From positions 1-64,000 of the forward strand of contig JAXHMK010000015.1 in NCBI GenBank assembly GCA_034521495.1: a stretch of DNA of 64,000 bases, in the 5' to 3' direction. Position 1 is the stretch's first letter. Every line of letters starts with the position of its first letter. The DNA comes from Balneolaceae bacterium (lineage in GTDB: Bacteria; Bacteroidota; Rhodothermia; Balneolales; Balneolaceae). Under the pieces are notes generated by a model. The model ran no database searches. It worked only from the letters and a program-made list of their open reading frames with translations, and was not told where the DNA came from. Of this stretch, positions 4,088 through 41,733 are shown one piece after another. A program made the translations under genes and the position numbers.

Positions 4088-4392
4088 CTTTTGAATGCAT
4101 TTATAGTCACTAAAAATGCAACCTATTCATTTTAGGGATAAAGAACCATAGGAAGGAACCTACATTCCCGGTGGTGGGAAATCCTATAAACAGAGGTGTC
4201 GAATCAGCGACTGAAGATCTGCTATTAATCCTAAGTGGTTTAATTCCCCGACCTCTGGGTCGGAAAAGATTAAAGTCCCCCTTTGAAGGGGGAAGCGAAC
4301 GGAGTGAGCTGGGGGATGGCTTTCTAAGTTCTGAATTGACAAACTCTTGGTTCTGAGGCATTACACCCCTCCCGGCTAAAGCCGTACTCCCC
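4088..4392. repeat. Cluster of palindromic repeat halves (R1-type) left of the IS110 element
   Basis: No gene is supported here, and the frames across it are made of repeats. A hairpin CCGACC...GGTCGG near 4248-4263 is followed by CCCCCTTTGAAGGGGG at 4274-4289 and a GGGGGATGG block. A second, inverted half-element starts near 4366 (ACACCCCTCCCGGC, then AAGCC and ACTCCCCTC) and stops at 4394, where the IS110 element begins. Its missing half resumes at 5684. Confidence 0.7.
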
Positions 4393-4409
4393 TCTTTTAG
4401 ACTTCCTGC

Positions 4410-4600
4410 GAAAAGTTTCGTTGGTTTAAACCAACGAAAAAAAGCTACCGAACCCCGACAGGCAACCTCTGTTCCCCTTTGGGAAAAACCCATCCCTTGA
4501 ACCGAAAGCCTGTCGGTGGCAGGTAGTTATCTTAACCCAAATAGTATGGGAAGATCACCTTCATAAAAGAGGCGGGAAGATAACTACTCGGCAGCTTATT
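4410..4600 (+). ncRNA. Candidate bridge RNA of the IS110 element
   Basis: The non-coding left end has three successive stems. First is a perfect 24-base palindrome at 4416-4439. Next is CCGACAGGC (4455-4463) pairing with GCCTGTCGG (4508-4516) around a 44-base loop. Last is GTAGTTATCTT (4523-4533) pairing with AAGATAACTAC (4577-4587) around a 43-base loop. Loop 1 carries TCCCCT (4473-4478), equal to the left target, and CCCTTGA (4494-4500), the reverse complement of core plus right target (TCAAGGG, 5684-5690). Loop 2 carries ATAGTAT (4541-4547), equal to the last bases of the element (5677-5683), and TAAAAGA (4564-4570), the reverse complement of core plus first bases (TCTTTTA, 4393-4399). The order target loop then donor loop is that of known bridge RNAs. 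The transcript ends are guesses. Confidence 0.75.
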
Positions 4601-4625
4601 CATTCAAACTTAAAATAGGTGAATC

Positions 4626-5660
4626 ATGATGAAAATTACAATTATATGGCGTTTTATTGTTGGCATCGATATCTCAAAAAAACAGTTGGACTGCTATTTG
4701 TTGGATCGAAAAACCGGCGGAGGCTATGAGTGTCAGGTTCCAAATACCTGCGAGGGATTTGAGCAACTGGCCAGCTGGTTGGCCGATCACGAGGCCGATC
4801 CGTCCCAGACAAAGCTCATCAGTGAGCATACCGGACGCTATGGGGAGCATCTGCTGCGGTGGACCACAACCAACCAGTGGGCGCATGCGGTCGTAAAAAC
4901 CACGGCGCTGAACAAAGTCGGCAACGAGCACCATCGCAAGACCGATGCCGTTGACGCCGAAGACCTGGCAGACTACGGGGTTCGCTACAGCGACGAAATT
5001 TCGCTGACGAGGGCCCCAAAACCGGCCATAGGGCAGATAAAGCGCCTTCAGGCCGAACGACGTGCGATGGTGGATCGGCGGGCCGCTTTGAGGAGTAAAC
5101 TCACCGAAGCCGACATCCACGACGCCGACATGGAGCGTCTTACGGGCATGTGGTCCCAGCAAATCGCCCTGCTCACCGAGCATATCACTGAGATCGAAGC
5201 CCGCATCAAAGAGCTGATCAATGAGGACACGGCTATAAAGAATCGGTATCAGATGATGCGCAGCGCACCCGGAATAGGAAAGGTACTGGGACCTTTATGG
5301 ATAAGCCTGTTCGCTGGCCAGCAGACCCTGGATGCTCGCAAGATTTCTTCCCGCTTCGGGTTTGCTCCACACCCGTACCAATCCGGCAGCTCGGTGAAAC
5401 GCACCGACTATAGTAGCGGATTTGGCAATTCTGAAGTCAGGCGGGTGATGCATCAAGTAGCCCTGAGCGTCAAAACCCATTACCCGCATTACCGGGAGTA
5501 TTACGAGAAAAAACGGGCCGAAGGAAAAGAGCATCTGTTGGTGATCAATAATATTATAAATAAATTGATTCGGCTGTACTGCGCCATGTGGAATAACCGC
5601 GCAGAATACGATCCCGACTACATTCAAAAAAATAAACACAAATGGAAAAAATCCGCTTAA
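4626..5660 (+). CDS. IS110-family transposase (DEDD/serine recombinase)
   Basis: 344 residues. The N-terminal RuvC-like DEDD domain shows Asp15 in GIDISKK, Glu67 in ISEHTGRYG, and Asp107 and Asp110 in KTDAVDAEDLA. A coiled middle (about 135-205) follows, then the C-terminal transposase_20 region with APGIGKV (214-220) and PYQSGSS (about 250-256), which holds the candidate catalytic serine. All named motifs are present and the length is normal, so it may be active. It would work with the bridge RNA encoded just upstream. The start at 4626 is the first ATG. An initiation further in would remove residues ahead of the first Asp but not the fold. Confidence 0.93.
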   Translation: MMKITIIWRFIVGIDISKKQLDCYLLDRKTGGGYECQVPNTCEGFEQLASWLADHEADPSQTKLISEHTGRYGEHLLRWTTTNQWAHAVVKTTALNKVGNEHHRKTDAVDAEDLADYGVRYSDEISLTRAPKPAIGQIKRLQAERRAMVDRRAALRSKLTEADIHDADMERLTGMWSQQIALLTEHITEIEARIKELINEDTAIKNRYQMMRSAPGIGKVLGPLWISLFAGQQTLDARKISSRFGFAPHPYQSGSSVKRTDYSSGFGNSEVRRVMHQVALSVKTHYPHYREYYEKKRAEGKEHLLVINNIINKLIRLYCAMWNNRAEYDPDYIQKNKHKWKKSA

Positions 5661-5683
5661 ACCACTTGATTTAGTCATAGTAT

Positions 5684-5731
5684 TCAAGGGGAGATTGATC
5701 ATCCCCCATTGCCCCCTTCGAAGGGGGACAC
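5684..5731. repeat. Right half of the R1 repeat interrupted by the IS110 element
   Basis: Begins TCAAGGGGAG at the IS core and continues into CATCCCCCATTG and the palindrome CCCCCTTCGAAGGGGG (about 5711-5726). The same CCCCCTTCGAAGGGGG plus CAATGGGGGATGATC order recurs, inverted, at 54997-55025. Confidence 0.7.
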
Positions 5732-14769: not shown

Positions 14770-16269
14770 TTAAAGTTCGTTTGGGTTGATATTATTCTTT
14801 CCGGTTAAATATTCGATGTAGGCCGATGCTTTATGCATATCCGCAAGAGCCTGAATTCGGTTTAGTTGATAGTCCAATAATTTTCGTTGCATGCGTAAAA
14901 TCTCTTCAAAATTGGAGCTGTCTGCTGAATAGGCCTGCATCATAATTGTCAGAGCTTGGTTGACTCGCTGGATCTGTGTTTGATCGTACAACTCAAACCG
15001 TCGCTCTGCATCGTAAAAGTCACGCAGGGAGGCATCCAGATCCGTTTGGAGTGAATTGGTTTTAGATGAAATCTCCATTTGTGCTGATTGAATATTTTGT
15101 TCTGCCTGCTGAACCTGCGCGTTGTACTTATTTCTGAACAGCGGAATCCTGAAACTTGCACGTGCAATTAAAGCGTCTTGGCCATTATTTGTTAGGGCAG
15201 TTACATCAGTACGTTCTCCTGTAAAGATGTAATCCATGCCAATTCCGAATGATGGTTTCCCATCTTTTGCTGCTAATTCCTTCATCTCTCTTGAAGATTT
15301 TTCCCGGTACTGCAAGCGAGACAATGTTGGGTTTTGTTGAATCAGCTGATTTTTCAGTGTTTGAGAATCATCAAGCATAATATCTGCATTCAACGTATCC
15401 GGAATCTGAATATCTTGCGGATCATTAAGCAATTCTCTGATTTTCTGCTCCATTACAGACCGGTTATCCCGAAGAAGTGCCAGTTGTGTTTTTAAATCCT
15501 CTTGCTCAATTTGGGCTCGAAGTACATCCACCTGGGTGGCCTGGTTTGTTTCATATCGGCGAAGGCTGATCTCTACCAGTGAGTTCAGAATCTCAAGATT
15601 TTCTTCTGTAATCGCGATGGTTCTGTTGATCTCATATAGCTCTAAAAATGCTTTTTCGGTTTGATAGAAAATTCGATTCCGTGTTTCCCGGAATGTCTCG
15701 AAATGAGCTTTTGACTGGACAGAGGCGATTTCCCTTTTATTTCCAAGTGTTCCAAACCACGGAAACATCTGTGTGAGAGAGATTCGCGCCTGCTGAGGTC
15801 CCAGCCGGGTCTCAATCGGGCTGATGAAATAGGCAAACGCCACTTCCGGATCAGGCAAAGCTCCCATTTGATCCGGTTCTTCTAAACTGGCAAGGTATTC
15901 ATGAAAAGCTGAACGTACCTCCGGGTTATTTTCTGCCGCGATTTGCTGGTAATCTTCGATGGATTGGGCTTTAACAGAACTCCCGAGAAGAAAAATTAAG
16001 AGCAATGCAGATAAAATGATTGAAAAAGGAGTTCTTCGAGGCTGGACAAAAAGGATGTTGGACAAGCAACTATACTTAATCTTGTCATGCCGGGCCCCGA
16101 CCCGGTATCTCCAAACTTGACAAAAAATCGGAGATTCTGAATCGAGTTCAGAATGACATCCTTTTTTTACAGCTCCTACTCCCTTCGAAGGGAGATTTTT
16201 ACTCTCCCCTTGAGGGGAGCGCGGCGAAGCCGGAGGGGTGTTCAATTTTTGACTATTCATTCTTCTCAT
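14770..16269 (-). CDS. cusC: CusC/TolC-like outer-membrane efflux protein with a repeat-derived N-terminal extension
   Basis: 499 residues; the outer-membrane channel of the RND pump. From about residue 80 a normal signal peptide (RRTPFSIILSALLLIFLLGSSVKAQ) leads into a TolC-type body with two helical repeats (IFYQTEKAFLELYEINRTI; DFYDAERRFELYDQTQIQRV). The first 75 residues read as translated intergenic repeats (TPPASPRSPQGES; CHSELDSESPIF; RYRVGARHDK). The ATG at 16269 overlaps the CusA stop as ATGA, so it looks like the original start with repeats inserted behind it. A TTG at about 16073 is a possible later start. Export of the long form is doubtful. Confidence 0.85.
   Translation of the reverse strand: MRRMNSQKLNTPPASPRSPQGESKNLPSKGVGAVKKGCHSELDSESPIFCQVWRYRVGARHDKIKYSCLSNILFVQPRRTPFSIILSALLLIFLLGSSVKAQSIEDYQQIAAENNPEVRSAFHEYLASLEEPDQMGALPDPEVAFAYFISPIETRLGPQQARISLTQMFPWFGTLGNKREIASVQSKAHFETFRETRNRIFYQTEKAFLELYEINRTIAITEENLEILNSLVEISLRRYETNQATQVDVLRAQIEQEDLKTQLALLRDNRSVMEQKIRELLNDPQDIQIPDTLNADIMLDDSQTLKNQLIQQNPTLSRLQYREKSSREMKELAAKDGKPSFGIGMDYIFTGERTDVTALTNNGQDALIARASFRIPLFRNKYNAQVQQAEQNIQSAQMEISSKTNSLQTDLDASLRDFYDAERRFELYDQTQIQRVNQALTIMMQAYSADSSNFEEILRMQRKLLDYQLNRIQALADMHKASAYIEYLTGKNNINPNEL
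16085..16242. repeat. Two palindromic repeats lying inside the CusC reading frame
   Basis: One half of an R1 element (CTCCCTTCGAAGGGAG at 16189-16204 and CTCCCCTTGAGGGGAG at 16204-16219, then GGAGGGGTGT) adjoins a second element, with arms CATGCCGGGCC/GACCCGGTATC and TCTGAATCGAGTTCAGAATG, at about 16085-16160. Relatives of the latter are at 36450-36475 and 53515-53540. Confidence 0.65.
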
Positions 16270-38707: not shown

Positions 38708-38958
38708 TCTCCCCTTGAGGGGAGTCCGCCTTTAGGCGGGAGGGGTGTAAACGTGTGTATCCGAATTCACGTGAACACCCATCAAATAACTCCGCTGATC
38801 GCTCTGTCATTGTCTCCCCAAGGAGACATTATTACATCTTATTTAAAGTACAATCTTTAATACATTCATTTTGCCACTAAAGCACAAAAACACGAAAAGG
38901 TACATAGGAATTTAAACTTGATAATTTTTTCATTTTTGTGATTTCATGTTTTTGTGGC
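38708..38958. repeat. R1-family element followed by an R5 palindrome
   Basis: R1 copy at 38708-38829: CTCCCCTTGAGGGGAG, stem CCGCC-TTTA-GGCGG, GGAGGGGTGTAA, then GAACACCC and GTCTCCCCAAGGAGAC. R5 copy at 38873-38958: GCCACTAAAGCACAAAAACAC and inverted ATGTTTTTGTGGC. No gene is seen in 38684-38991. Confidence 0.72.
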
Positions 38959-41609: not shown

Positions 41610-41733
41610 TCTCCCCTTGAGGGGAGTACCGCCTTTAGGCGGGGAGGGGTGTAAGGTACACATCCAAAATCACGCGGACACCCCTCAAATAACTCCGCTG
41701 AACGCTCCGTCATTGTCTCCCCTCAAGGGGAGA
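41610..41733. repeat. R1-family element at the 3' side of the DUF559 gene
   Basis: CTCCCCTTGAGGGGAG, stem CCGCC-TTTA-GGCGG, GGAGGGGTGT, then ACACCCCTCAAATAACTCCG and GTCTCCCCTCAAGGGGAG. It carries two perfect copies of the 12-base target core of the IS110 element (41614-41625 minus, 41718-41729 plus). Confidence 0.8.

Follow-up and report, generated by a model that had tools for sequence, protein, structure and literature searches.

Guide sequences of a putative bridge RNA in a Balneolaceae IS110-group element and their match to host repeats

Can the target and donor guides of a bridge RNA be read from a genome at an unstudied locus, and how far can such a reading be trusted? The question arises from an insertion sequence in Balneolaceae contig JAXHMK010000015.1, of which we analysed the first 64,000 nucleotides (hereafter the window). 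An initial annotation had described an IS110 element with four readable guides, and comparison of 11 related elements supported that description. We consider it very probable (roughly 0.95) that the window element is an IS110-group insertion sequence guided by its own bridge RNA. All features lie on the + strand.

Anatomy and boundaries of the element

The element is intact and, counting one core copy, 1,291 bp long as inserted. TC, present at 4393..4394 and again at 5684..5685, is the only sequence common to both junctions and was therefore taken as the core. The genome also holds uninterrupted copies of the insertion site, which fix the boundaries; one of them, L042, is 91.4% identical to the joined flanks over 301 bp and contains a single TC. 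These paralogous empty sites are an end mapping independent of the initial annotation, and they agree with its placement of TC at 4393-4394 and 5684-5685. The left target flank, TAAAGCCGTACTCCCCTC (4377..4394), and the right target flank, AAGGGGAGATTGATC (5686..5700), are the two halves of a host repeat, CTCCCCTCAAGGGGAG. The target sequence of the element reads CTCCCCTCAAGGG and its donor sequence ATAGTATTCTTTTA; the left donor, ATAGTAT (5677..5683), forms part of a conserved right end, ACTTGATTTAGTCATAGTATTC (5664..5685).

The gene (4626..5660) encodes a DEDD recombinase of 344 aa, with 231 bp of non-coding sequence upstream and 23 bp between stop codon and core. A long non-coding left end with a short right end is typical of the IS110 group; a shared core dinucleotide with an exact empty site, found here in paralogues, is a mark of IS110 bridge RNAs. 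The recombinase matched PF01548 (DEDD_Tnp_IS110, N-terminal; E 5.8e-19, 68.8 bits, cut-off 29) and PF02371 (Transposase_20, C-terminal; E 1.2e-10, 42.1 bits, cut-off 21.3), and scored 137.6 bits against NCBIfam NF033542, slightly below the cut-off of 140. All the catalytic residues are present: D15, E67, D107 and D110 align with the RuvC-like DEDD set of IS621, and S253 with its SG serine. By sequence, the closest solved structures were ISCro4 (9t56, E 9e-23) and then IS621 (8wt6, E 5e-22). The NCBIfam model of TIGR-Tas endonucleases also matched the C-terminal half of the product weakly, at E 1e-4 and far under its cut-off.

A predicted two-loop RNA in the left end

The 226-nt left-end region folds with a z-score of -5.6, and none of 200 shuffled sequences folded equally well. 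Its fold consists of a 5' hairpin (4416..4439) followed by a body (4442..4597) closed by an outer stem, AAGCT.CCGA / TCGG.AGCTT. Within the body lie the target-loop hairpin (4453..4516; stem 1 4453-4463 / 4508-4516, 44-base loop 4464-4507) and the donor-loop hairpin (4523..4587; stem 2 4523-4533 / 4577-4587, 43-base loop 4534-4576). Both the 5' hairpin and the body recur in a consensus fold of six relatives, which has compensatory changes at 11 of its 50 pairs, and an RNA model of the body (R1) recovered the bridge RNA in related elements and their fragments. A 5' stem-loop followed by two stem-loops with internal guide loops is the layout of IS110 bridge RNAs. No Rfam family reached its gathering score anywhere in the window.

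Four guides can be read in the two loops. In the first, the left target guide (LTG), TCCCCT (4473..4478), is identical to 4388-4393, and a second T facing the core, at 4479, lengthens it; the right target guide (RTG), CCCTTGA (4494..4500), is the complement of 5684-5690, that is, of the core plus AAGGG. In the second, the left donor guide (LDG), ATAGTAT (4541..4547), equals the right end at 5677-5683, and the right donor guide (RDG), TAAAAGA (4564..4570), is the complement of the left end at 4393-4399. Every coordinate that the initial annotation gave for the loops, guides and TC boundaries was correct, and the fold confirms its order of target loop then donor loop, as in IS621.

The four matches differ in how readily they arise by chance. 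Of the dinucleotide-shuffled loops, 0.23% contained the LDG word, 1.4% the RDG word, 18.6% the LTG word and 9.9% the RTG word; the target words are common because loop 1 is C-rich. At the window locus alone, the donor guide pair is thus strong evidence and the target guide pair weak. The initial annotation had read the guides correctly, but its claim that they fix specificity without a homology search was overstated for the target side, where 19% and 10% of shuffled loops hold the words. The same frequencies favour the view that the hairpins are ordinary structures, regulating the transposase gene for example, and that the guide matches are coincidences of C-rich sequence. A single locus is weak against that view, which the relatives described below make highly improbable.

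The position of the RNA bears on whether the element could instead be of the IS1111 type, with a seekRNA downstream of the transposase. The two types share a protein superfamily, and IS1111 elements too target REPs and attC sites (PMC11187229). Here the long non-coding region lies upstream of the gene, with only 23 bases from stop codon to core; the bottom-strand match comes first in the guide order; and IS621 and ISCro4 are the solved proteins nearest to the recombinase. The downstream guide RNA that marks the IS1111 group is thus not what this locus shows, its RNA lying upstream of the gene. We regard IS1111 affiliation as very unlikely.

Joining of the element ends in a circle would create a promoter-like pair, TTGATT-N17-TAGACT, with identical spacing in 11/11 elements; taken singly, the junction scores no better than shuffled sequence. 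Promoter formation at the circle junction has been reported in kind for IS621 (PMC11208160).

Guides, flanks and ends in related elements

Relatives were found by protein searches in Balneolaceae-like genomes and beyond, and both guides and flanks could be read in eleven elements of 29-88% protein identity. L007 and L014 were left out since their upstream DNA is N; a protein search across the phylum (395 genomes) added one distant relative, L093. A plasmid search returned relatives all below 60% identity, those listed being at 26-31%.

With a fixed register and the core excluded, the LTG matched its own flank at 5.03 of 7 positions (2.06 when flanks were swapped) and the RTG at 4.55 of 5 (2.10 when swapped). 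The observed sum of the two was reached in none of 200,000 permutations, in a test that used registers chosen visually on the alignment and elements that, being related, are not fully independent. A register-free version gave 1/200,000 for both guides together; over 8 bases beyond the core its left side was clear and its right side weak (9,243/200,000), as the right guide does not span 8 bases, and the flank of G033 was cut wrongly in this version. We therefore prefer the fixed-register test. Guide and flank agree closely in individual cases (right guides pairing as complements): in G111, LTG GCTGCGC faces left flank GCTGCGC and RTG GGCCT faces right flank AGGCT; in G073, CGTGAGT faces CGTGAGT and ATCTC faces GAGAT; in G177, CGTTCGT faces CGTTCGT and ATCGC faces GCGAT. 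In G015, CTACCCC likewise faces CTACCCC, with RTG GATTC against right flank GAATA. One G057 element is present in 8 identical copies, whose left flanks end in CTC and whose readable right flanks all start with TCGCAATGAC; the right flank was read only where the sequence extends beyond the contig end.

The initial annotation had proposed that loop 1 of homologues should follow their own flanks. That holds overall, the first loop pairing with both target strands and varying with the target, but with exceptions. In an internally deleted copy (G019:C106) neither guide matches well; G086:C46 has the guides of G083 and a left flank one base out of register; a second G057 element fits its right flank and not its left; and the right guide of G071 mismatches its own flank.

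Donor guides followed the element ends, as had also been proposed. The LDG agreed with the right end in 10/10 elements (70/70 bases) through three states, ATAGTAT, ATAGCAT and ATAGACA, and the RDG with the left end at 49/50 bases over 10 elements (TTTTA, TATTA, TGTTA). In permutations, agreement as good occurred 122 and 68 times per 100,000 for LDG and RDG, respectively. These states track the protein tree and so represent few events; the tree, from which G083 is absent owing to an early stop codon, holds too few independent donor changes for an event count. The second loop is conserved and pairs with the element ends. A guide-flank match over 11 elements never equalled in 200,000 permutations, together with donor guides that track three different end types, argues against ordinary hairpins with fortuitous matches and for a bridge RNA.

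Even G015, whose protein is 87% identical to that of the window element, differs from it in the target guides. The donor guides of the two are identical; 8/10 bases agree in the LTG zone and 4/8 in the RTG zone, and no part of the RNA has changed more than the right target guide.

Several further loci carry remnants or variants. In L078 / L016 (G086:C10, 66077-66252) the target-loop hairpin is wholly lost, apparently by deletion between direct repeats CATGGCAGG, and the gene is truncated too. At L079 (G039:C174) and L081 (G063:C60) the left end of an element of this family survives as a decayed fragment, and the left flank again reads CTCCCCTC, the window element's target. G008 (L080, L085, L087) holds at least three copies of another element with its own target loop, which was excluded from the guide-flank test as its contigs end inside the element and right flanks are unreadable. 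Four related elements (L018, L019, L020 and L021) all lie after TAACCCGCGCA and before TTCAAG, with TT at the left junction and TC at the right; this context may resemble an integron attC end.

Host repeats as targets, and comparison with known systems

The initial annotation did not notice that the element sits in a repeat that is abundant in its host. Joined through a single TC, the flanks spell the 16-mer CTCCCCTCAAGGGGAG, of which the window's genome (G000, about 4.57 Mb) contains 34 exact copies; in several copies the similarity to the joined flanks reaches beyond the 16-mer, as in L042. With two mismatches allowed there were 129 matches over both strands against 2 for a reversed control, many sites being counted on both strands because the word is nearly palindromic. 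Copies of this genome-wide repeat within the window lie at 16204-16219, 38709-38724, 41611-41626 and 41717-41732. Its constant arms, ACACCCCTC ... ACTCCCCTCAAGGGGAGA, enclose an inner hairpin that is widely variable yet mostly palindromic; there were 20 distinct inner segments, most of which fold well.

In several relatives the target is likewise a host repeat, different from that of the window element. The G083 target had 29 near-copies in its own genome, against 1 in that of the window; the corresponding counts were 130 and 4 for the G111 target and 12 and 6 for that of G019 (controls 0-2). The G015 target is weakly repeated (6 against a control of 2) and is itself a palindrome, ATTATTCG...CGAATAAT. 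Across the clade, target loops vary around a donor loop that stays the same; lineages therefore insert into different palindromic host repeats.

The window element is the only copy in its genome despite the 34 exact target sites, and several relatives have decayed. Both facts would suit an element that has been read correctly, with guides that still fit, but that is dead or dormant and no longer moves. Against this, nothing is broken in its reading frame, its catalytic residues, its two ends or its two loops, and a relative at 65% identity, present in 8 identical copies, indicates that the clade was recently active. We judge loss of movement unlikely, though it is the most credible of the alternatives considered.

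The mechanism of the bridge-RNA-guided element is best read as that published for IS621, with circle excision, donor and target pairing, and exchange at the core. Transcription of the long non-coding left end would yield the bridge RNA, which the recombinase would bind. The donor loop of this RNA would pair with the joined ends of an excised circle, ATAGTAT-TC-TTTTA, and its target loop with both strands of the host repeat, CTCCCC-TC-AAGGG; the DEDD/serine recombinase would then exchange strands at the shared TC core.

More tentatively, the bridge RNAs of this Balneolales clade may have adapted repeatedly to the palindromic repeat that happens to be abundant in each host, with the donor loop fixed. 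Off-register copies and half-changed guides, as between the window element and G015, might then be intermediates in which the two target guides change stepwise; we hold this to be somewhat less probable than its negation.

From genomes alone, bridge-RNA guides were readable at an unstudied locus and consistent with the insertion sites of relatives. The elements form a compact natural series for guide evolution, about ten in number with one donor code per subclade and many target codes, which adds new recombinases with a TC core and suggests that, in this group of bacteria, such elements usually land in palindromic repeats of the host. A literature search outside ISfinder found no paper on these elements. 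Bridge RNAs (the machinery in 2024), target and donor co-variation, natural reprogramming and REP targeting are all already published.

Among the known systems closest to the window element is IS621 (PMC11208160, PMC11208158). In both, the bridge RNA lies upstream of the gene and has a 5' stem-loop, then the target loop and last the donor loop; the four guides overlap a core dinucleotide, the recombinase belongs to the IS110 group and insertion is in palindromic host repeats. The window element differs in its core (TC, as against CT in IS621), in its distant protein and different guides, in an RTG that extends 5 bases past the core, and in its Balneolaceae host. ISCro4 (PDB 9t56), a distant relative compared here at the protein level, is the best solved one by sequence. 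RNA-guided target choice is shared with the seekRNAs of ISEc21 and IS1111, and natural retargeting between related elements has been described for ISEc11 / ISXne4 (PMC11187229). In IS1111 elements the RNA lies downstream in reversed order (PMC11187229). The present elements also differ in forming a series, about ten of them across related hosts. The targeting of host repeats parallels IS621 (PMC11208160) and the REP-targeting ISPpu9, ISPpu10, ISPa11 and ISRm22, which also insert in abundant intergenic palindromes (PMC1525189); unlike in those elements, the RNA guide for each repeat can here be read and compared between hosts.
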